Below are positions 53,421-64,000 of a stretch of 64,000 bases of DNA, one piece after another (the first letter of the stretch is position 1; each line of letters begins with the position of its first letter). The DNA is from Gemmobacter caeni. GTDB lineage: Bacteria; Pseudomonadota; Alphaproteobacteria; Rhodobacterales; Rhodobacteraceae. The stretch is from positions 310,001-374,000 of the forward strand of contig NZ_QBKP01000003.1 of assembly GCF_003054195.1 (NCBI RefSeq), given 5' to 3'. The notes beneath the pieces were generated by a model that was not told where the DNA came from, searched no databases, and saw nothing but the letters and a program-made list of their open reading frames with translations. A program made the position numbers and the translations under genes.

Positions 53421-53864
53421 ATGCCGACGGCAGGCAAGCTTCTGGGCGCGATATTCTTTGCGGCGCTGGCCTATCTGACGGCCGAACTGTTCAAACCCTC
53501 GGTGCCAGAAGGCACCTCTTTCGGTAATTTCAGCCTGTATGTCGCGGCAATCGGGCTTGGCAGTGGCTGGTTTGTTATGGGGCCGCGCGCGCCGGAGGGG
53601 GGCATGGCACAGGCGATCAGCGCGGGTTTGCAGGCGGCGCTGACGACGGCTTTCTTTGCGCTGCTGGGCTTCGGCATCTACCTCATGCTCGGCAAGGCGC
53701 TGCGCAAGATGTACAAGGGCCCCTTCGAGGCGATTACCGGCGTGTTCGAACTGATGGTGGAAAACCTGTTTCTGGTGCTGACGTCGCCGCAGGTCATGGC
53801 GGCCCTGCTGGTGGGTGGCCCGCTGTGCGGCATTGCAGTGCATAAGCTGGTACGGCGGCGCTGA
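53421..53864 (+). CDS. trgA: TrgA family membrane protein
   Basis: 147 residues with about three or four membrane segments (near 5-20, 35-52, 70-92, 115-135). MPTAGKLLGAIFFAALAYLT, LYVAAIGLGSGWFVMGPRAP and FEAITGVFELMVENLF match TrgA of Rhodobacter sphaeroides, one of two proteins linked to tellurite resistance. The mechanism is unknown. The last base overlaps the start of trgB, so they are coupled. Confidence 0.88.
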   Translation: MPTAGKLLGAIFFAALAYLTAELFKPSVPEGTSFGNFSLYVAAIGLGSGWFVMGPRAPEGGMAQAISAGLQAALTTAFFALLGFGIYLMLGKALRKMYKGPFEAITGVFELMVENLFLVLTSPQVMAALLVGGPLCGIAVHKLVRRR

Positions 53865-54967
53865 TGGATTTGTTCTTTTACGGCACGCTGTGCCACCCGC
53901 CACTGCTGGAGGCGGTTCTGGGCCGCGCTGTGGTTACTGAACCTGCCACCCTGCCGGGGTATGAGGTGCTCTGGTCCGCCGAGGGGGCGTGGCCGGTGAT
54001 CCGGCGCGGCGCAGGCGCGGCGCAGGGGCGGCTGATGCGCAATGCCACGGCCGAAGATGTGGCGCGGCTGGATTTCTACGAAGGCGGCTTCGGCTATCGC
54101 ACCGCTGCGCTGCCGGTCGCGGCGGCGGGGGCCTCGACCGCGCTGGTCTATCTGCCACCCGATGCGGCGCCCGTGGCGGGGCCGTGGTCGCTGGCGGACT
54201 GGGTGCGCGACTGGGGCGCGGTGGCGGTGGTGACCGCGCGTGACGTGATGGCGCTGATGGGCCAGCGCGAGGCGGCCGAGGTGGTGCGGCGTTACCGGCT
54301 GATGCTGGTGCGGGGCGCCAGCCGGTTGCGGGCCGTCGAGGCGCCGCCGGTCACGCGGCGGCATCGGGCGACGGCGGGCGATGTGGTGGTCGACCGCTTT
54401 CGCCAGCCCTATGCCAATTTCTTCGCCATCGAAGAATACGATCTGCGTTATCGCCGCTTTGACGGTCGCATGAGTGAACAGATCAACCGCGCGGTCTTTG
54501 TCTCGGGCGATGCGGTGACGGTGCTGCCCTATGATCCCGTGCGCGACCGGGTGCTGCTGATCGAACAGTTCCGCGCCGGTCCCTACGGGCGGGGCGATCC
54601 GCAGCCCTGGCTGCTGGAGGCCATCGCAGGACGCATCGACCCGGACGAGACGCCGGAACAGGCCGCCCGGCGTGAGGCGGTGGAAGAAGCGGGCCTGCAT
54701 CTGGGCGCGCTGGAGAAAGTGGGCGCCTATTACCCTTCGCCGGGGGCAAAAAGCGAATACCTCTATTCCTATGTTGCGCTTTGCGATCTGCCCGACGGGG
54801 TGGAGGGCGTGTTTGGCGTCGAGGGCGAGGCGGAAGATATCCGCGGGCATCTGGTCAGCTTCAAGGAATTCATGGCGTTGATCACCTCGGGTGAGGTGGA
54901 CAACGGGCCGCTGCTGGTGACGGCGCTTTGGTTGCAGCGCGAAAGGGCGCGGCTGCGCGGGGCTTAG
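53864..54967 (+). CDS. trgB: TrgB: gamma-glutamylcyclotransferase-like plus Nudix fusion
   Basis: 367 residues in two domains. Residues 1-150 have the GGCT/AIG2-type fold opening MDLFFYGTLCHPPLLEAVLG with YGTL and a late LDFYEGGFGYR. Residues about 165-367 are a Nudix hydrolase like ADP-sugar pyrophosphatase: AVFVSGDAVTVLPYDP, the Nudix box from about 264 (GRIDPDETPEQAARREAVEE, then AGL), and SPGAKSEYLYSYVA. This is the R. sphaeroides TrgB layout. The pair trgA-trgB confers tellurite resistance there. The joint substrate of the two domains is unknown. Confidence 0.9.
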   Translation: MDLFFYGTLCHPPLLEAVLGRAVVTEPATLPGYEVLWSAEGAWPVIRRGAGAAQGRLMRNATAEDVARLDFYEGGFGYRTAALPVAAAGASTALVYLPPDAAPVAGPWSLADWVRDWGAVAVVTARDVMALMGQREAAEVVRRYRLMLVRGASRLRAVEAPPVTRRHRATAGDVVVDRFRQPYANFFAIEEYDLRYRRFDGRMSEQINRAVFVSGDAVTVLPYDPVRDRVLLIEQFRAGPYGRGDPQPWLLEAIAGRIDPDETPEQAARREAVEEAGLHLGALEKVGAYYPSPGAKSEYLYSYVALCDLPDGVEGVFGVEGEAEDIRGHLVSFKEFMALITSGEVDNGPLLVTALWLQRERARLRGA

Positions 54968-54979
54968 CCCGGTGGCGGA

Positions 54980-55936
54980 TCAGGGGCCGTAGATGCGCTG
55001 CTCGGGTGGGGTTTCCGCCAGAAGTGTATCGAGGATGGCCAGAAACGCCGCCTCGGCCCGGTTCCGTCGTGCGCGCGGGTTGCGGGCCAGATAGACGTCG
55101 ATGGCGGGCGGATCGTCCTGCGGCGGCAGGCGCCACAGGCGCCCGGCGCGCAGATCCTCCTCCACCACATGCAACGGCAAAGGCCCGATCCCGAGGCCCG
55201 CAAGGATCATCCGCCGCACCTCCTCCAGATGGGTGGACTGGCCGACCGGGCCGGAAAGCCCGGCCCGCTGGCGCAGTTCAGTCACGGCGGCCAGCGCATC
55301 GCCCATGCGATCGGTCTGGAAACTGACGGCGGTGTGTCCCGCGAGGTCCTCCAGTGTCAGGCCGGACCGGGCATAAAGCGGGTGCGGCGGCCCGCAGAAC
55401 AGACCGAAGAACTCGCGATAGAACACTTCGGTTTGCAGATCGCTGCGCGGATCGGTCATCAGACAGATGGCAAGGCTGGCCTGGCCCTCGGCCAGTCGTG
55501 TCAGCGCCTCGCGTGAGGGCAGGATGTCGATGGACAGCGTGGCCTTGGGGTGAGCCGCGTGAAACCGGCGCAAAGCCGCGTCCAGCAGGGGCGAGACAAC
55601 ATGCGAGGCCAGTGCCAGCGTGACCTCGCCCGCCACTGCGCCCGAGGCTTCTGCCATCGCCTCGGCCCCGCGCAGGATGGCGGCCCGCACCGCCTGCGCC
55701 TCTGCCAGCAGGGCCATGCCCTCGGGTGTCAGGGTGAAACTGCCCGCGCTGCGGTCGATCAGCCGGTGGCCGGTGCGTTCCTCCAGCCGTTTCAGCGCCT
55801 GGCTGACCGAGGGTTGCTTCAGCCCCAGCCTTTCGCCCGCCCGCGTTACCGACCCGGCCTCTGCCAGCGCGAGAAAGACCCGCAGCAGGTTCCAATCGAG
55901 GTCACGGGCGAGCTTTTCGGCGGGGCTGAGACGCAT
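54980..55936 (-). CDS. LysR family regulator of the aminotransferase operon
   Basis: 318 residues. The N-terminal helix-turn-helix is DLDWNLLRVFLALAEAGSVT and AGERLGLKQPSVSQALKRLE. The periplasmic-binding-like effector domain fills about 90-300, with SLAICLMTDPRSDLQ and GIGPLPLHVVEEDL. It is divergent from the class III aminotransferase gene across about 100 bp, the usual arrangement when a LysR protein activates the neighbouring operon. I chose ATG 55936. The inducer is presumably a substrate or intermediate of that operon. Confidence 0.92.
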   Translation of the reverse strand: MRLSPAEKLARDLDWNLLRVFLALAEAGSVTRAGERLGLKQPSVSQALKRLEERTGHRLIDRSAGSFTLTPEGMALLAEAQAVRAAILRGAEAMAEASGAVAGEVTLALASHVVSPLLDAALRRFHAAHPKATLSIDILPSREALTRLAEGQASLAICLMTDPRSDLQTEVFYREFFGLFCGPPHPLYARSGLTLEDLAGHTAVSFQTDRMGDALAAVTELRQRAGLSGPVGQSTHLEEVRRMILAGLGIGPLPLHVVEEDLRAGRLWRLPPQDDPPAIDVYLARNPRARRNRAEAAFLAILDTLLAETPPEQRIYGP

Positions 55937-55948
55937 GTCATTCACTGT

Positions 55949-55957
55949 ATCAATGAT
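55949..55957. promoter_or_regulatory. Candidate LysR operator
   Basis: ATCA-A-TGAT is a small palindrome in the AT-rich part of the divergent promoter, followed by GCAGATTAAAACAATCC. LysR sites are usually longer imperfect T-N11-A dyads, so this may be one half. Confidence 0.3.
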
Positions 55958-56033
55958 GCAGATTAAAACAATCCATTTGGAGAATGCGGCGCCATGCGCC
56001 ATCCTCAGGGTGAACCTCGCCCGGAGACTGATG

Positions 56034-57365
56034 ATGAGCCACCTGTTCTACCTTTCCACTGCTGCGCGGCCCGTGCTGGACCGTGCCGAAGGGATCTACA
56101 TGTGGGATACTTCGGGGCGGCGGTTCATCGACGGATCGTCGGGCGCGATGGTCAGCAATATCGGCCATTCCAACCCTGCCGTTCTGGCTGCGATGCGGGC
56201 GCAGATGGATAGATCCACCTTCGGCTACCGGCTGCATTTCGAAACCGAACCGGGTGAGCAACTGGCCGCAAAGGTTGCCGCGCTCAGCCCGGAGGGGATG
56301 GAGAAGGTATTCTTCGTCTCCGGCGGGTCGGAGGCTGTGGAAAGCGCGATGAAGCTCGCCCGGCAATATGCGGTGGTCACCGGGCAGGCAAGCCGGTGGA
56401 AAGTGATCTCGCGTTTCCCGTCCTATCACGGATCGACGCTGGGGGCGCTGTCGGTGACGGGTTACGATCCGCTGACCGATCCTTTCCGCCCGATGATGGT
56501 GGAGATGCCGAAGATCCCCGCGCCGCGCGCCTATCTTGACGGTCTGGACATGGATAACCCCGCCACCGGCGCGCATTACGCGGCGATGCTGGAGGACCGC
56601 ATTCTGTCCGAGGGGCCAGAGACAGTGCTGGCCTTCATCCACGAACCCGTCGGCGGCGCCTCGACCGGCGCGCTGGTGCCGCCCGCGGGCTATATGCAGG
56701 CGGTGCGCGCGATCTGCGACAAATACGGTGTGCTGCTGATCCATGACGAGGTGATGAGCGGCGGCGGCCGCGTCGGCACCTTCCTTGGCGGCGACCTTTG
56801 GGGCGTGGCCCCGGATATCATTGCGATTTCAAAGGGTTTCGGTGCGGGCTATGCGCCGCTTGGTGCCATGATCGCGCAGGATCGCATCGTGCAGGCGGTG
56901 CAGGATGCGGGCGGTTTCCTGCACGGCCATACCTATGCCGGCAATCCGCTGGCCTGCACGGCGGGCCTTGCCGTGCTGACCGAGATTGAGCGGCAGGATA
57001 TGATGGGCAACGCGCGCAAGGTGGGGGCTGTTCTGAAACAACGCCTGAAGAACCTGATGCAACGCTATGGCTTCATTGGTGATGTGCGGGGTGAGGGCCT
57101 GTTGCTGGCCTTCGAGTTTGTTGCCGGTCGCGAAACAATGGCGCCACTGCCGCGCGAAATGAAGGCCTTCGATGATCTGGTCGAACGTGCCTATGCCGAG
57201 GGGCTGATCATCTATTCCCGCCGCACGCGCGGTGGTTATGAGGGTGACCATTTCCTCGTCTGCCCGCCGATGATCACGACCGAGGCACAGGTGGACGAGA
57301 TCATGGAGAAACTGACCCGTGCGCTGGATGGGTTCGCGGATGCTCATGCGGGAGCATTGGCATGA
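56034..57365 (+). CDS. Class III aminotransferase (omega/beta-amino acid type)
   Basis: 443 residues. Motifs are IGHSNPAVLAAM, VSGGSEAVESAMKLAR, SYHGSTLGALS, the PLP aspartate D238 in LLIHDEVMSGGGR, Schiff-base K267 in IAISKGFGAGYAPLGAM, and GHTYAGNPLACTAGL. This subgroup transaminates terminal or beta-amino groups to ketones. I chose ATG 56034 because GGAG lies 7 bp upstream; ATG 56031 is also possible. It is the first gene of a four-gene operon with 4-bp overlaps. In context it may transaminate N6-acetyl-beta-lysine to 3-oxo-6-acetamidohexanoate, a proposal. Confidence 0.9.
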   Translation: MSHLFYLSTAARPVLDRAEGIYMWDTSGRRFIDGSSGAMVSNIGHSNPAVLAAMRAQMDRSTFGYRLHFETEPGEQLAAKVAALSPEGMEKVFFVSGGSEAVESAMKLARQYAVVTGQASRWKVISRFPSYHGSTLGALSVTGYDPLTDPFRPMMVEMPKIPAPRAYLDGLDMDNPATGAHYAAMLEDRILSEGPETVLAFIHEPVGGASTGALVPPAGYMQAVRAICDKYGVLLIHDEVMSGGGRVGTFLGGDLWGVAPDIIAISKGFGAGYAPLGAMIAQDRIVQAVQDAGGFLHGHTYAGNPLACTAGLAVLTEIERQDMMGNARKVGAVLKQRLKNLMQRYGFIGDVRGEGLLLAFEFVAGRETMAPLPREMKAFDDLVERAYAEGLIIYSRRTRGGYEGDHFLVCPPMITTEAQVDEIMEKLTRALDGFADAHAGALA

Positions 57366-58279
57366 AGATCATCATCTCCTGCGCTATCACTGGCTCGATC
57401 CACACACCCAGCATGTCGCCCTATCTGCCGTTCCGGGCCGAGGATATTGCGGCGGAGGCAATCGGCGCGGCCAAGGCGGGTGCTGCGATCCTGCACCTGC
57501 ACGCCCGCGACCCCGAGACGGGCCGCCCCTCTGCCTCCCCGGCGCATTGGAAGGGATTTCTGCCTGCGATTTCAAGTTCCTGCGATGCGGTCCTCAACAT
57601 GACCACCGGCGGATCGGCGGTGATGACGCTGGATCAGCGGCTGGAGGCGCCGCTGACTTTTGCACCGGAGATGTGCAGCCTTAACATGGGGTCGATGAAT
57701 TTCGCGCTCTATCCCATGGCTGCGAAACCCCGCGACTGGCGGTTCGACTGGGAAGAGCCGTTCCTGCGCGACTCCGACGATCTGGTGTTCAAGAATACCC
57801 CGCGCGACATCGCAGGCGTCTTGCAGCGCATGGGCACCGAACGCGGTGCGCGGTTCGAGTTCGAATGCTATGACGTGAGCCACCTTCACATGCTGCGCCA
57901 CTTCGTTGACCGCGGGCTGGTTGACGGGCCGATCTTCCTGCAGTTCGTCATGGGCGTGCTGGGCGGTATCGCGGCAGAACCGGAGCATCTGATCCATCTG
58001 CACCAGACAGCGCAGAAACTGTTTCCGAAGTTCGAATGGTCGGTGCTGGCGGCGGGACGGCGGCAGATGGAATTCGCCGCTATCGCGGCGGCGATGGGCG
58101 GGCATGTCCGCGTCGGGTTGGAGGACAACCTTTACCTCTCGAAAGGCGTACTGGCGAAATCCAACGCCGAACAGGTTGAAAAGGTGCGCGGCATTGTCGA
58201 GGCGCTGGGCGGCAGTCCCGCCACGCCCGACGAGGCGCGCGCACTGCTGGGCCTGAAGGGACGGCAGGTCTACGCATGA
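57362..58279 (+). CDS. Beta-keto acid cleavage enzyme (BKACE, DUF849)
   Basis: 305 residues. The zinc-binding motif is H45-L-H47 in AAILHLHARDPETGRPS, with E254 in VRVGLEDNLYLS. The barrel and the NMTTGGS segment are typical. BKACE enzymes take a beta-keto acid and acetyl-CoA and give acetoacetate and a shortened acyl-CoA; the founder is 3-keto-5-aminohexanoate cleavage enzyme of lysine fermentation. It overlaps the aminotransferase and the GNAT genes by 4 bp each. The aminotransferase would supply the beta-keto acid, supporting a beta-amino acid substrate. Confidence 0.93.
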   Translation: MKIIISCAITGSIHTPSMSPYLPFRAEDIAAEAIGAAKAGAAILHLHARDPETGRPSASPAHWKGFLPAISSSCDAVLNMTTGGSAVMTLDQRLEAPLTFAPEMCSLNMGSMNFALYPMAAKPRDWRFDWEEPFLRDSDDLVFKNTPRDIAGVLQRMGTERGARFEFECYDVSHLHMLRHFVDRGLVDGPIFLQFVMGVLGGIAAEPEHLIHLHQTAQKLFPKFEWSVLAAGRRQMEFAAIAAAMGGHVRVGLEDNLYLSKGVLAKSNAEQVEKVRGIVEALGGSPATPDEARALLGLKGRQVYA

Positions 58280-58713
58280 TCCGCGCCGCGACGGTTGAAG
58301 ATGCCGCAAGGGTCATGGCGGGTCTGCAAGCTCTGGCCGCCGACATGGGTGATCCGTTCCGCACGACCGGGGCGCAGGTGGCTACCGCCCTTGCCAGCGG
58401 TGCGATCCGTGCCGAGCTGGCCGATCACGGCCTAGCGCTCTGGTCGCCGTTCCTTTCCACCACGCGGGGGCGGATCGGGGCCTATGTCTCAGACCTCTGG
58501 GTCGGGGCAGAGGCGCGCGGGCAGGGGCTGGGCCGCCAGTTGCTTGCCGCCGTTCGTAACCGGGCCGAGGCAGAATTCGGGGCCAGCTTCCTGCGCCTTG
58601 CCGTCTATGACGATAATCCGCGTGCGCGGGTCTTCTATGACCGGCTGGGGTTCACCCCGAAAGCCGATGAAATCTGGCTGACGCTGGAAGGCGCGGCCCT
58701 GGAGGCAGTATGA
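58276..58713 (+). CDS. GNAT N-acetyltransferase of the BKACE operon
   Basis: 145 residues. DLWVGAEARGQGLGRQLLAA holds the acetyl-CoA loop (RGQGLG), followed by LAVYDDNPRARVFYDRLGFT, the usual GNAT end. It probably acetylates an amine, and its place between the BKACE and the deacetylase genes suggests a small-molecule pathway step or protection of an amino group. It is shorter than methanogen AblB (about 270 residues), so homology to AblB cannot be claimed. It overlaps both neighbours by 4 bp. Confidence 0.85.
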   Translation: MIRAATVEDAARVMAGLQALAADMGDPFRTTGAQVATALASGAIRAELADHGLALWSPFLSTTRGRIGAYVSDLWVGAEARGQGLGRQLLAAVRNRAEAEFGASFLRLAVYDDNPRARVFYDRLGFTPKADEIWLTLEGAALEAV

Positions 58714-59723
58714 AAGCGTTTCTCGATGACCGGCAGGCCGGGCATGACCCGCAGATGTTCATGGCAAACGGCACGCGCCTGCCGAACCCGGAAAAGCCCG
58801 AACGCATCGCAGTGCTGAAAGCCGGGGCCGAAGCGGCAGGCGCCCGCTTCGCGCCACCGCGCGATTTCGGCATGGGGCCGCTGGCGGCGGTGCATACGGC
58901 CGAATACCTCGCCTTCCTGCAAACCATCCACCCGCGCTGGAAACGGATCGAGGGTGCGGCGGACGAGGTCATTCCGAATATCCACCCTGACCGCCGCAGC
59001 GCCAATTATCCGAAATCCGCCGTGGGGCAAGCTGGATGGCATCAGGCCGATACCGCCTGTCCCATCGCCGCTGGCACATGGGAGGCGGCCTATTGGTCGG
59101 CCCAGACCGCGCTGAGCGGTGCTGAATCCGTGCTCGCAGGTGAAACCACCTATGCGCTCTGCCGCCCGCCGGGGCATCACGCCTTTGCCGATCTGGCGGG
59201 GGGCTTTTGTTTCCTCAACAATTCCGGCATTGCCGCTGAATGGCTGCTGCGCAAGGGCCTGCGCCCGGCGATCCTTGATGTTGACGTGCACCACGGCAAT
59301 GGCACCCAGGGCATGTTCTATCACCGCCGCGACGTGCTGACCGTCAGCCTGCACGCCGACCCTGACCGCTTCTATCCGTTCTTCTGGGGCGCCGCGCAGG
59401 AACGCGGCGAAGGCGAGGGGCTGGGCTACAATCTCAACCTTCCGCTTCCGCGCGGCACGGGCGACGCCGATTACCGCGCGGCTCTTGCCACGGCGCTGGC
59501 CCGCATCCACGCTTTCGGCGCGGATGTCATCGTTATTGCCCTGGGCCTCGACGGCCATGAGGATGACCCTTTTCAGGGCCTGAAGATCACCACCGAAGGC
59601 TTCACCCGCATCGCGGCCGACATCGCCGCCACCGGCCTGCGCCTCCTCGTGGTGCAGGAAGGCGGCTACCTGCAACCGAAGCTGGGCGCCAATCTGACCG
59701 CCTTCCTCAAGGGCCTTGCCTGA
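58710..59723 (+). CDS. Acetylpolyamine amidohydrolase/HDAC-family deacetylase
   Basis: 337 residues. It is a zinc arginase/deacetylase-fold enzyme. The general-base pair is H156-H157 in CRPPGHHAF, zinc ligands are D192 and H194 in DVDVHHGNGTQG, and the third ligand is in GLDGHEDDP. LQEGGY near the C-terminus is a family signature. The group hydrolyses N-acetylated polyamines and similar acetamides. It is last in the operon with the aminotransferase, BKACE and GNAT, and could remove the acetyl group from a 4-acetamidobutyryl product. Confidence 0.9.
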   Translation: MKAFLDDRQAGHDPQMFMANGTRLPNPEKPERIAVLKAGAEAAGARFAPPRDFGMGPLAAVHTAEYLAFLQTIHPRWKRIEGAADEVIPNIHPDRRSANYPKSAVGQAGWHQADTACPIAAGTWEAAYWSAQTALSGAESVLAGETTYALCRPPGHHAFADLAGGFCFLNNSGIAAEWLLRKGLRPAILDVDVHHGNGTQGMFYHRRDVLTVSLHADPDRFYPFFWGAAQERGEGEGLGYNLNLPLPRGTGDADYRAALATALARIHAFGADVIVIALGLDGHEDDPFQGLKITTEGFTRIAADIAATGLRLLVVQEGGYLQPKLGANLTAFLKGLA

Positions 59724-60023: not shown

Positions 60024-61367
60024 ATGTCCAAACGTGTCGCCGTGATCGGAGCCGGGCCTTCGGGTCTTGCCATGCTCCGCGCCTTCCAGTCCGCCAAGGC
60101 CAAAGGAGCGGATATCCCCGAAGTCGTCTGTTTCGAGAAGCAGGGCAACTGGGGCGGGCTGTGGAACTACACCTGGCGCACGGGACTTGATGAGCATGGC
60201 GAGCCGGTGCATTGCTCGATGTATCGCTACCTCTGGTCGAACGGCCCGAAAGAGGGTCTCGAATTCGCCGACTATTCCTTTGAGGAACATTTCGGCAAGC
60301 AGATCGCCAGCTATCCGCCGCGCGCCGTGCTGTTCGACTATATCGAGGGCCGGGTGAAGAAGGCTGGCGTGCGCGACTGGATCCGCTTCAACACCACGAT
60401 CCGCATGGTGCGCTATGACGAGGCGAAGGGCACCTTCACCGTCACCGCGCATGATCTGGAAAACGACCGGATGTATGACGAGGAATTCGACAATGTGGTC
60501 GTGGCCTCAGGCCATTTCTCGGTGCCGAATGTGCCGGAATATCCGGGGTTCGACAAGTTCAACGGCCGCGTTCTGCATGCCCATGACTTCCGCGACGCGC
60601 GCGAATTCGCGGGCAAGGATCTTCTGCTGCTGGGGTCGAGCTATTCGGCCGAGGATATCGGTTCGCAATGCTGGAAATATGGTGCGAAGTCGATCACGGT
60701 CGCCTATCGCAACGCGCCGATGGGCTTCAAATGGCCCGAAAACTGGAAGGAAGTGCCGAAGCTGGAGCGGGTGGATGAAACCACCGCCTATTTCGCCGAT
60801 GGCACATCCAGGAAAGTCGATGCGATCATCCTCTGCACCGGCTACAAGCACCACTTCCCGTTCCTGCCGGATGACCTGCGCCTGAAAACCGCGAACCGGC
60901 TGGCGGCGGCTGACCTCTACAAGGGCGTGGTCTGGGTGAACAATCCGAAGATGTTCTACGTCGGCATGCAGGACCAGTGGTTCACCTTCAATATGTTCGA
61001 CGCCCAGGCCTGGTGGGTGCGCGATGCCATCATGGGCCGCATCGCCGTGCCGACCGACAAGGCCACGATGCTGAAGGATGTCGAGGCGCGCGTGGCCGGC
61101 GAGGATGCCGGTCAGGATGCGCATGACGCGATCCATTATCAGGGCGATTACGTCAAGGAACTGATCGCCGAGACCGATTACCCGTCCTTTGATGTGGACG
61201 GCGCCTGCGAGGCCTTCTTCGAGTGGAAGGACCACAAGAAGGAAGATATCATGGGCTTCCGCAATCACGCCTATCGCTCGGTCATCACCGGCTCCATGGC
61301 GCCTGTCCACCATACGCCCTGGAAGGATGCGCTGGAGGACAGCATGGAAAGTTATCTGCGGAACTGA
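60024..61367 (+). CDS. tmm: Trimethylamine monooxygenase (flavin-containing)
   Basis: 447 residues, FMO type. It oxidises trimethylamine to the N-oxide with FAD and [25 protein letters not shown] is the FAD site, [14 protein letters not shown] the NADPH site and [16 protein letters not shown] the linking motif. [19 protein letters not shown] and [15 protein letters not shown] are nearly identical to marine Tmm enzymes as I recall them. It lies next to gmaS on the opposite strand, supporting a methylamine pathway. The later enzymes (TMAO demethylase, dimethylamine monooxygenase) are not in the window. A strong terminator follows. Confidence 0.93.
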
Positions 61368-61392
61368 ACCCCCTTTCACCCGCAGAACTGGA

Positions 61393-61421
61393 CCCCGGAG
61401 GCAGCTCCGGGGTTTTCTTTT
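61393..61421 (+). terminator. tmm terminator
   Basis: CCCCGGAG-GCAG-CTCCGGGG is followed by TTTTCTTTT, 25 bp after the tmm stop. It is a textbook Rho-independent terminator. Confidence 0.92.
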
Positions 61422-61440
61422 GCGCTGTCCTGAAACCGGG

Positions 61441-61477
61441 TGCCGGCCCACGGGGCATCGAGCCCCGTGGGCCGGCA
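61441..61477. repeat. Long GC-rich palindrome with GGGGC-ATCGA-GCCCC core
   Basis: Perfect 16-bp arms (TGCCGGCCCACGGGGC and GCCCCGTGGGCCGGCA) around a 5-nt loop ATCGA. It lies between tmm and the convergent gmaS, 20 bp after the tmm terminator. The core matches the one at 59841 on the opposite strand. Confidence 0.7.
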
Positions 61478-61616
61478 TTGCCATGGCCTGCGGATCCGGC
61501 GGTGCGGTAATCCGGCCGGTGCGGTGGTGGGGAGGGAGGCGTTTTGAGTATTTGGGCAAGAAGTAAGGGGCGGGGGCGTCTGGCGGGGCGTTTGGCTGGG
61601 CTGTGGAAATGACTGC

Positions 61617-61639
61617 GGCCCCGGCAGGGCGCCGGGGCC
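61617..61639 (-). terminator. Stem-loop downstream of gmaS
   Basis: GGCCCCGGC-AGGGC-GCCGGGGCC, a perfect 9-bp stem 22 bp after the gmaS stop. There is no T-run. Confidence 0.5.
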
Positions 61640-61660
61640 GGAGACAGGTTTTGCGCGGGA

Positions 61661-62971
61661 TCAGACGTCCAGCGTGTTCTCGTGTTCCCAGCGCGAGAAA
61701 TGGGAGACGAAGCTGTTCCATTCCTGCTGCTTCAGCTTCAGATAGGCGGAAGAAAACTCCTCGCCCATCATCGATTTCAGCGTCTTGTCCTTGTCGTATT
61801 CGCGCAGCGCATCGAGCAGGTTCAGTGGCAGTTTCGGCGCGCCTTTCACGGTATGGCCCTGCTGATACATGTCGATGTCGTAGCGACGCCCCGGATCGGC
61901 ATTGGTGCGCACACCGTCCAGACCGGCGGCAAGGATGATCGCCTGCATCAGATAGGGGTTGGCGGCGCCATCGGGCAGGCGCAACTCGAACCGGCCGGGG
62001 CCGGGGACACGCACCATATGGGTGCGGTTGTTGCCGGTCCAGGTGACGGTGTTCGGCGCCCAGGTCGCGCCCGAGGAGGTGCGCGGCGCGTTGATGCGTT
62101 TGTAGCTGTTCACCGTCGGGTTGCAGATCGCGGCCAGCGCCGAGGCGTGCTTCATGATGCCGCCGAGGAAGTGGCGGCCCTGATCGCTGAGGCCCAGTTC
62201 CTTGCTGTTATCAGCGAAGGCGTTCTTCTTGCCGTCGAGGCTCCAGACCGAGATATGGGCATGGCAGCCCGAGCCGGTCAGGCCCTTGAAGGGTTTCGGC
62301 ATGAAGGTGGCGCGCAGACCGTGCTTTTCGGCCACCGACTTCAGCATGAACTTGAAGAAGCTGTGCTTGTCGGCGGTGGCGAGCACGTCATCGTATTTCC
62401 AGTTCATCTCGAACTGGCCGATCGCATCCTCGTGGTCGTTCTGGTACGCTTCCCAGCCGAGTTCCAGCATGTAGTCGCAGACTTCGGCGATCACATCGTA
62501 GCGGCGCATGACAGCCTGCTGGTCGTAGCAGGGCTTTTCCGCGGTATCCCACGGGTCCGAGATCTGGTCGCCTTCCGGGGTTAGCAGGAAGAACTCCGGC
62601 TCGACCCCGGTCTTGACGCGCAGGCCTTCCTTGGCGGCCTCGTCGACCAGACGGCGCAGCACGTTGCGCGGGGCCTGGGCAAGCGGCTTGCCTTCCATCA
62701 CGCAATTGGCGGGAACCCAGGCGACTTCGCGCCGCCAGGGCAACTGGATGACCGCCTCGGGGTCGGGGACCGCCATCATGTCGGGATGGGCGGGGGTCAG
62801 GTCCAGCCAAGTGGCGAAGCCGGCAAAGCCGGCTCCGTCTTCAGCCATGTCATTGATCGCCTGCGCCGGAACGAGCTTGGCCCGTTGCCCTCCGAAGAGG
62901 TCGGTGTAGGAGATCATGAAATACTTGACGCCCTTGTCCTTTGCCCATTTGGCAAGGTCTTTCACCATCAT
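61661..62971 (-). CDS. gmaS: Gamma-glutamylmethylamide synthetase
   Basis: 436 residues of the glutamine synthetase superfamily. It joins methylamine to glutamate with ATP. GVKYFMISYTDLFGGQRAKL opens it. The metal and substrate loops are GVEPEFFLLTPEG, QFEMNWKYDDVL and the ATP/metal-side KPFKGLTGSGCHAHISVW. It lacks the adenylylation loop of ordinary GlnA. Its upstream neighbour is an N-methylglutamate synthase subunit, so the type is GmaS rather than a nitrogen-assimilation enzyme. The start at 62971 follows GGGAG; the next codon is also ATG. Confidence 0.92.
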   Translation of the reverse strand: MMVKDLAKWAKDKGVKYFMISYTDLFGGQRAKLVPAQAINDMAEDGAGFAGFATWLDLTPAHPDMMAVPDPEAVIQLPWRREVAWVPANCVMEGKPLAQAPRNVLRRLVDEAAKEGLRVKTGVEPEFFLLTPEGDQISDPWDTAEKPCYDQQAVMRRYDVIAEVCDYMLELGWEAYQNDHEDAIGQFEMNWKYDDVLATADKHSFFKFMLKSVAEKHGLRATFMPKPFKGLTGSGCHAHISVWSLDGKKNAFADNSKELGLSDQGRHFLGGIMKHASALAAICNPTVNSYKRINAPRTSSGATWAPNTVTWTGNNRTHMVRVPGPGRFELRLPDGAANPYLMQAIILAAGLDGVRTNADPGRRYDIDMYQQGHTVKGAPKLPLNLLDALREYDKDKTLKSMMGEEFSSAYLKLKQQEWNSFVSHFSRWEHENTLDV

Positions 62972-62998
62972 TTAACTCCCTGTTCTATCTTTTTATTC

Positions 62999-64000
62999 TC
63001 AGAAGCCGCCGTTGCGGCCGGGGATCCAGCTGGTCCCGGCCAGCGGCACGCCTGCCATGGCGGCGGATTCGATCGTCAGTGCACAGAGATCCTCGGGTTC
63101 GAGGTTGTGCAGATGGTTCTTGCCGCAGGCGCGGGCGATGGTCTGGGCTTCCAGCGTCATCACCTTGAGATAGTTCTTCAGTCGGCGCCCCCCGAGGATC
63201 GGGTCGAACCGCTTGAAGAGGTCCGGGTCCTGGGTGGTGATCCCGGCGGGGTCCTTGCCCTCGTGCCAGTCGTCATAGGCACCGGCGGTGGTGCCGAGCT
63301 TCTGGTACTCGGCCTCCAGCGCCGGGTCGTTGTCGCCCAGGGCCACAAGGGCCGCGGTGCCGATGGCGACGGCATCAGCGCCCAGCGCCATGGCCTTGGC
63401 CACATCGGCGCCGGTGCGGATGCCGCCGGAGACGATGAGCTGCACCTTGCGGTGCATACCGAGGTCTTGCAGGGCCTTCACCGCCTGCGGGATGCAGGCG
63501 AGGATCGGCATGCCGACGTTTTCGATGAACACGTCCTGCGTGGCGGCGGTGCCGCCCTGCATGCCGTCCAGCACCACGACATCGGCCCCGGCCTTCACGG
63601 CCAGCGCGGTGTCATAATAGGGGCGGGCGCCGCCGACCTTCACATAGATCGGTTTCTCCCATTCGGTGATCTCGCGGATTTCAAGGATCTTGATCTCCAG
63701 ATCATCCGGCCCGGTCCAGTCGGGGTGGCGGCAGGCCGAGCGCTGGTCGATGCCCTTGGGCAGGTTGCGCATCATGGCCACGCGGTCGGAGATTTTCTGG
63801 CCCAGCAGCATGCCGCCGCCGCCGGGCTTCGCGCCCTGACCCACCACGACCTCGATCGCATCGGCGCGGCGCAGGTCGTCGGGGTTCATGCCATAGCGCG
63901 AGGGCAGGTATTGATAAACCAGCGTTTTCGAATGCCCGCGCTCTTCCTCCGTCATGCCACCGTCGCCGGTGGTGGTCGAGGTGCCGGCCTCGCTGGCGCC
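62999..64000 (-). CDS. mgsC: N-methylglutamate synthase FMN-binding subunit, partial (runs off the right edge)
   Basis: At least 333 residues are present; the start lies beyond 64000. The fold is the FMN domain of glutamate synthase large subunit: GTSTTTGDGG at the window edge, SRYGMNPDDLRRADAIEVVV, GQGAKPGGGGMLLGQ, KVGGARPYYDTALAVKAGAD, DGMQGGTAAT, SGGIRTGADVAKAMALGADA and AIGTAAL. In this context it is the large subunit of N-methylglutamate synthase (MgsC), which makes N-methylglutamate from gamma-glutamylmethylamide. gmaS follows 27 bp downstream. The remaining mgs and mgd genes would lie to the right. Confidence 0.88.
   Translation of the reverse strand, partial: GASEAGTSTTTGDGGMTEEERGHSKTLVYQYLPSRYGMNPDDLRRADAIEVVVGQGAKPGGGGMLLGQKISDRVAMMRNLPKGIDQRSACRHPDWTGPDDLEIKILEIREITEWEKPIYVKVGGARPYYDTALAVKAGADVVVLDGMQGGTAATQDVFIENVGMPILACIPQAVKALQDLGMHRKVQLIVSGGIRTGADVAKAMALGADAVAIGTAALVALGDNDPALEAEYQKLGTTAGAYDDWHEGKDPAGITTQDPDLFKRFDPILGGRRLKNYLKVMTLEAQTIARACGKNHLHNLEPEDLCALTIESAAMAGVPLAGTSWIPGRNGGF

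Follow-up and report, generated by a model that had tools for sequence, protein, structure and literature searches.

Aerobic degradation of β-lysine in a Pseudomonas was reportedly shown by the Barker group to consist of an acetylation and a transamination, followed by a cleavage that depends on acetyl-CoA and by removal of the acetyl group to leave 4-aminobutyrate. The enzymes of this pathway are not known to have assigned genes. The 64,000-nucleotide stretch of Gemmobacter caeni DNA analysed here (contig NZ_QBKP01000003.1, positions 310,001 to 374,000; hereafter the window) carries at positions 56034-59723 an operon of four genes, encoding a class III aminotransferase, a beta-keto acid cleavage enzyme (BKACE), a GNAT-family protein and a deacetylase of the histone deacetylase (HDAC) fold. 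The four steps of the Pseudomonas route pair one to one with these four genes, for which the substrate and the activities in the window are predicted. An acetyl-protected β-amino acid route is, as general chemistry, the best and a probable reading of the gene set, and β-lysine (3,6-diaminohexanoate) is the favoured, as yet unproven, candidate for its substrate.

The kamA-yodPQRST operon of Bacillus is similar in that it combines an acetyltransferase, a class III aminotransferase from the clade of the window enzyme, a step that activates the acyl group of a β-keto acid, and a deacylase. Unlike the window, it includes lysine 2,3-aminomutase and AblB (the window GNAT is not AblB), and it has a CoA-transferase in place of the BKACE and an M20 deacylase in place of the HDAC fold. 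KamA is BSU19690 and YodT, the aminotransferase, is BSU19740 with 3I4J as its nearest structure, according to PMC6522883. Kce, another BKACE, likewise works on a compound derived from β-lysine, as described in PMC3149608; it differs in that its substrate carries a free amine and is formed, without any acetylation, by a 5,6-aminomutase followed by a dehydrogenase, and the window BKACE reaches 244.6 bits on NF052387, below the equivalog cut-off of 382. The features of the window locus are the following:

56034-57365, + strand: class III aminotransferase (Pfam Aminotran_3, 325 bits)
57362-58279, + strand: BKACE (Pfam BKACE, PF05853, 355 bits, cut-off 24.8)
58276-58713, + strand: GNAT (Pfam Acetyltransf_1, 47 bits)
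58710-59723, + strand: HDAC-fold deacetylase of the acetylpolyamine-amidohydrolase type (Pfam Hist_deacetyl, 241 bits)
54980-55936, - strand: LysR-family regulator (LysR_substrate 118 bits, HTH_1 76 bits)
55937-56033, no strand: region between the aminotransferase and LysR genes, by position only the expected place of a LysR site and the operon promoter

All of these Pfam scores exceed the family cut-offs, and the aminotransferase/BKACE, BKACE/GNAT and GNAT/deacetylase junctions are three exact 4-bp ATGA overlaps, which bears out the four-gene operon with a divergent LysR gene described in an earlier note on this DNA. The LysR open reading frame (ORF) spans 54980-56002 on the - strand and is transcribed divergently from the operon, with ATG at 55936 as its likely start. 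The regulator probably activates the operon and would respond to some pathway compound; a sigma-70 scan of 55937-56033 found no site.

In the favoured scheme, the GNAT would acetylate the distal (C6) amine of β-lysine, so that the later ketone would be unable to cyclise onto it. The aminotransferase would then pass the amino group at C3 on to an acceptor and so form 6-acetamido-3-oxohexanoate, from which the BKACE, with acetyl-CoA, would produce acetoacetate and 4-acetamidobutyryl-CoA. The deacetylase would strip the acetyl group, and perhaps also CoA, from 4-acetamidobutyryl-CoA or 4-acetamidobutyrate to release 4-aminobutyrate, which GabT and succinate-semialdehyde dehydrogenase (SSADH), encoded elsewhere in the genome, would convert to succinate. 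Observed directly are the gene order, the protein families, the linkage kept among relatives and their importer types, the catalytic residues and the 4-aminobutyrate genes; the substrate, the sequence of reactions and what each enzyme does are inferred. The search for 4-aminobutyrate genes suggested in the earlier note was positive, with two matches over cut-off to GABA-aminotransferase (TIGR00700) and three to SSADH (TIGR01780) in the 5.1 Mb, 80-contig source genome. That the compound broken down aerobically is β-lysine, or N6-acetyl-β-lysine from outside, has in our judgement about an even chance.

A fuller proposal, tentative and possible rather than probable, is that the operon carries the genes for catabolising β-lysine or N6-acetyl-β-lysine aerobically, a set widespread in alphaproteobacteria, in which BKACE replaces the Bacillus CoA-transferase, the HDAC-fold enzyme is the 4-acetamidobutyryl-CoA deacetylase-thioesterase described in early biochemical work, and an osmolyte of methanogens and Bacillus is salvaged from the environment. 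Since the pathway is already known from biochemistry, what would be new is the assignment of genes and the BKACE/HDAC-fold solution; a literature search gave no paper on acetamidobutyryl-CoA, and among the papers listed there was nothing on this operon. If true, the proposal would supply genes for an enzyme chain that is not known to have them, physiological substrates for a clade of BKACEs and a clade of "acetylpolyamine" deacetylases, both now labelled otherwise, and a sink for β-lysine or N6-acetyl-β-lysine in alphaproteobacteria seemingly unable to make it.

Conservation of the gene set was followed in the best 80 of 586 loci from a BKACE-only search of a genome collection, down to ~58% identity, a choice by BKACE similarity that overstates gene coupling; the 80 include one sequence twice, as L047 and as L048. 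The closest named relatives in that search are Gemmobacter caeruleus (90%) and G. serpentinus (84%). By tblastn, an aminotransferase lies beside the BKACE in 69/80 loci, a deacetylase in 71/80 and both in 66/80, so the operon is not a chance neighbourhood; among the loci with complete flanks the two occur together in 54/66. The GNAT is present in 60 of the 80 (58 by tblastn and 2 more by ORF clustering; a diverged copy in L095 is scored as present), including 55 of the 66 loci with aminotransferase and deacetylase. A LysR cluster is found in 59/80, nearly always on the - strand and upstream of the importer if one is present. The fullest version has the LysR gene on one side and, reading away from it, an ABC importer of four genes, aminotransferase, BKACE, GNAT and deacetylase. 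A counter-sample was drawn by deacetylase from 149 genomes of the same family (141 with a match at E 1e-3), and in its best 30 loci, with flanks of ~1.5 kb, the BKACE adjoins the deacetylase in 19.

Some variants of the gene set were also noticed. A gene for an N,N-dimethylformamidase beta-subunit-type protein is part of the operon or close to it in 5/80 loci and on a Pararhizobium plasmid (L108 7335-8978, L158 4515-6152, L102, L104, L044, L050). A creatininase-family amidohydrolase is found inside the operon version with an amino acid importer (L075 4688-5497; the same cluster at L085 4662-5510). On a Rhizobium plasmid (L163 7100-7501), a 133-residue ORF between aminotransferase and GNAT looks like a decayed BKACE remnant.

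Turning to the individual enzymes, a GNAT profile built from 30 of 43 available orthologues matches the structures of thialysine acetyltransferase (1e-24) and the probable N-acetyltransferase 2fe7 (1e-24), and also diamine acetyltransferase 2 (7e-23), diamine acetyltransferase 1 and ornithine NATA1 (7e-17); the window GNAT alone gives weak structure matches only. This lends family-level support to acetylation of the distal amine in a compound resembling lysine. With 33-61% identity between the window protein and 29 orthologues, the GNAT is the least conserved product of the operon.

The NCBIfam families nearest to the window aminotransferase are NF005685 (458 bits, cut-off 485) and NF005375 (408 bits, cut-off 535); YodT scores 459 and 786 bits on them, respectively, and belongs to NF005375. 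The window enzyme is 36-38% identical to three YodT proteins and has 3i4j as its best PDB match. Among 15 class III matches in its own genome, some of them pieces of one gene, two BKACE-linked aminotransferases top NF005375 with 418 and 408 bits, and the remainder stay at or below 294 bits. In a tree of 29 rows (two long ones, L179_Phaeo_a and L162_Com_b, were left out), the operon aminotransferases, those of Phaeobacter and Sinorhizobium, YodT and other BKACE-linked aminotransferases form one clade of 22 rows with support 100/99, outside which fall six class III aminotransferases of the own genome and one from Comamonadaceae. The supported sisters of the operon enzymes are Phaeobacter and Sinorhizobium aminotransferases from other contexts (100/98).

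A search of plasmids for KamA matched 117 records, and in three Bacillaceae records examined among the matches listed the order is aminotransferase, CoA-transferase A, CoA-transferase B, M20 "peptidase" and ablB, followed by ablA, which in the third is a KamA match only and not in the feature table. Thalassospira operons (L110, L112, L113) carry an extra M20 deacylase, which in L110 belongs to NF005306 (526 bits, cut-off 376). YodQ, from two records, barely passes that cut-off with 379 and 382 bits; its identity to the Thalassospira M20 deacylases is 30-34%. NF005306 deacylases are also found next to the deacetylase in Qingshengfaniella and several genes off in Azospirillum.

The window BKACE is 53-55% identical to 8RIO, 3E49 and 3E02, and His45, His47 and Glu254, which we take to be the zinc ligands, are invariant in 86 aligned BKACEs, gaps ignored. 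The family was reportedly defined by Bastard et al. 2014. Their BKACE groups by substrate charge are quoted in PMC4922564. BKACE15 of Paracoccus denitrificans (8RIO/8RIP/9HNF) is of the same subfamily as the window enzyme (53% identical), and PMC11961710 reports that acetyl-CoA cleavage by it yields acetoacetate and that this nearest characterised BKACE accepts neutral linear C5-C6 β-keto acids, which suits a neutral, acetyl-masked chain. In the tree, however, 8RIO falls outside the operon set, together with 3E49 and an Azospirillum protein; it sits on a long branch, and many of the tree's nodes are open. Topology tests on 85 rows, of which 76 form the operon set (L043 and L103 are counted in despite lacking the neighbouring genes), did not reject that set as a single clade (p-AU 0.816; the constrained tree beat the quick free tree) and disfavoured a constrained grouping of the three Gemmobacter BKACEs with 8RIO (p-AU 0.0275). 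Residue 195 is Phe in 75/76 operon-set BKACEs and Thr in 8RIO; it is T, C or S in 8/9 references and F in 3LOT.

The best PDB match of the deacetylase is 3men (307 bits), and its best structure matches are acetylpolyamine amidohydrolases. It shares with the Mycoplana ramosa enzyme the HDAC fold and the intact zinc and catalytic set (HH, D, H, D, Y), which is conserved in 68-71 of 71 deacetylases depending on position. In contrast, Glu106, Glu117 and the PIS motif of the Mycoplana enzyme are Val, Ala and PFQ in the window. Glu117, presumably a polyamine-binding position, is replaced in 71/71 deacetylases, Glu106 in 70/71, and Ser292 of PIS in 68, with 1 kept and 2 gapped. The sole exception at Glu106 is the second deacetylase of a gammaproteobacterial metagenome-assembled genome whose operon has two tandem deacetylase genes (L105 3234-5294). 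Glu106 is linked to polyamine selectivity and is His in another polyamine deacetylase, as stated in PMC11532494, so that its loss lowers the chance of a polyamine substrate and does not exclude it.

Among the 80 relatives, 50 have an importer of the Pot (polyamine) type and 10 one of the type for polar or basic amino acids, never both, as assigned from one representative per gene cluster. Both occupy the same slot, from LysR to the aminotransferase, and two unrelated importer types in one slot are as expected for a cationic amino acid. The best structure match of one Pot-type binding protein (L059) is a putrescine-binding protein (E 2e-16). The Pot-type importers, the names of the deacetylase's best PDB relatives and the diamine acetyltransferases matched by the GNAT profile could also reflect polyamine catabolism, in which GNAT and deacetylase act on polyamines, the aminotransferase gives an aminoaldehyde, and the BKACE works on, for example, malonate semialdehyde. 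A BKACE of the same subfamily takes this compound in vitro; it is, however, called non-native in PMC11961710. As the deacetylase is without the polyamine-binding acids and an amino-acid-type importer fills the Pot slot in 10 loci, we regard polyamine catabolism as very unlikely.

Several observations weigh against the β-lysine reading. First, the window BKACE passes the equivalog cut-off of NF053538, 3,5-dioxohexanoate:acetyl-CoA acetone transferase (462 bits, cut-off 430), a label that formally names another in vitro substrate. Taken at face value, it would make the enzyme a 3,5-dioxohexanoate-type BKACE that serves aromatic or polyketide metabolism and has nothing to do with its neighbours. 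Ten further BKACE proteins were scored against the model, and six from outside aminotransferase-BKACE-deacetylase operons exceed the window (505-542 bits): the second BKACE of the own genome (537), those of L106, L109, L111 and L115 with neither aminotransferase nor deacetylase adjoining (516-542), and that of L102 with a deacetylase and no aminotransferase (505). Two operon BKACEs, of L041 and L110, score 489 and 522 bits, the third BKACE of the own genome scores 219 bits, and its short fourth was assigned no family in this scoring. The model thus spans several contexts, with the window BKACE near its edge; as paralogues of unrelated operons score higher, the label is non-discriminating and cannot decide the substrate, and we rejected it as proof of another one. 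The earlier note had said that its proposal would be refuted if the BKACE were clearly orthologous to a subfamily whose proven substrate is a different one; NF053538 touches on this formally and, for the same reason, is not decisive. With the topology tests also disfavouring a grouping with the P. denitrificans enzyme and leaving the operon-set clade standing, a correct NF053538 label appears extremely unlikely.

The second and third BKACEs of the own genome have contexts of their own. The second (L154 8031-13833) lies with a 3-hydroxyacyl-CoA dehydrogenase and caprolactamase-like subunits, these neighbours all below family cut-offs, and the third (L155 7896-10612) adjoins carnitine 3-dehydrogenase and would by context be a dehydrocarnitine cleavage enzyme.

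The aminotransferase clade is a further point on the opposing side. Within it, YodT joins the operon enzymes with weak support (80/60), and YodT as a demonstrated orthologue was rejected on that ground. The clade also includes the aminotransferase of a second aminotransferase-BKACE pair of the same genome (L156 8530-10622), beside which no acetyltransferase or deacetylase was recognised, so that membership of the clade does not fix the substrate. This pair, which has a counterpart on an Alloyangia plasmid (L178), lies next to a betaine-type ABC importer, read by eye from the ORFs, and possibly acts on another β-amino acid.

Nor is the deacetylase exclusive to this pathway. In 11 of the 30 deacetylase-drawn loci it has no neighbouring BKACE, and a BKACE (E 1e-60) is wholly absent from 8 of those 11 genomes; the other 3 hold one that is 53-54% identical. 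One of the 11 (L019) has the order aminotransferase, GNAT, deacetylase and DAO. Such a locus would suit catabolism of an α-diamino acid (D- or L-lysine) through 2-oxo-6-acetamidohexanoate and 5-acetamidovalerate, with the BKACE on a side branch. A FAD oxidoreductase extends the operon in 32/80 relatives, the one tested (L107 10970-12076) being near D-arginine dehydrogenase DauA (298 bits), and RidA does so in 23/80. In L106 a FAD oxidoreductase follows a BKACE that has no aminotransferase, and may thus substitute for the aminotransferase on one enantiomer. The BKACE, however, is translation-coupled between aminotransferase and GNAT in the window and stands beside aminotransferase and deacetylase in most relatives, and the four genes include no α-keto acid decarboxylase or dehydrogenase. 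α-Keto acids are not known to be substrates of the BKACE family. Taken together, an α-diamino acid is quite unlikely as the substrate.

The GNAT is absent by both measures from 11 of the 66 loci with aminotransferase and deacetylase. Twelve GNAT-less genomes were searched (those of 10 of the 11 loci plus L102 and L108): seven encode a homologue elsewhere (E < 1e-34) and five gave none at that threshold. In such operons, either another gene supplies the acetylation or the substrate is imported already acetylated. The same chemistry could serve other diamino β-amino acids, for example β-ornithine, which would yield β-alanine, perhaps imported acetylated and with the GNAT as an accessory. The four activities do not set the chain length, and the importer type varies among the relatives. 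However, no gene for β-ornithine synthesis or use was recognised among the subset of neighbours that were annotated, and the single parallel found that involves an aminomutase is the one for lysine in Bacillus. A diamino β-amino acid other than β-lysine is, in our view, a somewhat unlikely substrate.

The supply of β-lysine is the last difficulty. The search for ablA proposed in the earlier note was negative: a true lysine 2,3-aminomutase (TIGR03820) over cut-off was found in 0/47 genomes, 37 having no match at E 1e-3 and 10 a weaker relative. These are the genomes behind the examined loci, five of which (L043, L106, L109, L111, L115) lack aminotransferase and deacetylase at the BKACE. The homologue in the own genome scores 287.7 bits (cut-off 525.4) and is of the AblA_like_2 kind (421.6 bits, cut-off 396.25), which in two plasmid matches, among the matches listed, overlaps features annotated as elongation factor P (EF-P) lysine aminoacylase. 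AblB (TIGR03827) has no match in the own genome and exceeds its cut-off in 0/398 genomes of the phylum, and neither ablA nor ablB is among the four operon genes. The cell would therefore depend on β-lysine taken up from outside, in keeping with the importers of the relatives; the window and its two nearest relatives (L036, L037) lack the operon importer. The acetylate-transaminate-cleave-deacetylate pathway of the earlier note is plausible and partly supported: its chemistry suits all four genes and agrees with the GNAT profile, the deacetylase residues, the clade shared with YodT and the 4-aminobutyrate genes, while its substrate is not fixed by them.

Two neighbouring regions deserve mention. 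To the right of the operon, 60024-63955 holds a trimethylamine monooxygenase gene (NF058570, 841 bits) with type III glutamine synthetase-like and glutamate-synthase-like genes, which probably make up a cluster for methylated amines (N-methylglutamate); in L036 and L037 no such monooxygenase was found. On the other side, 53864-54967 is a single ORF combining GGACT (gamma-glutamylcyclotransferase-like) and NUDIX domains, which among the loci of the deacetylase-drawn comparison adjoins the operon in L036 and L037 only.

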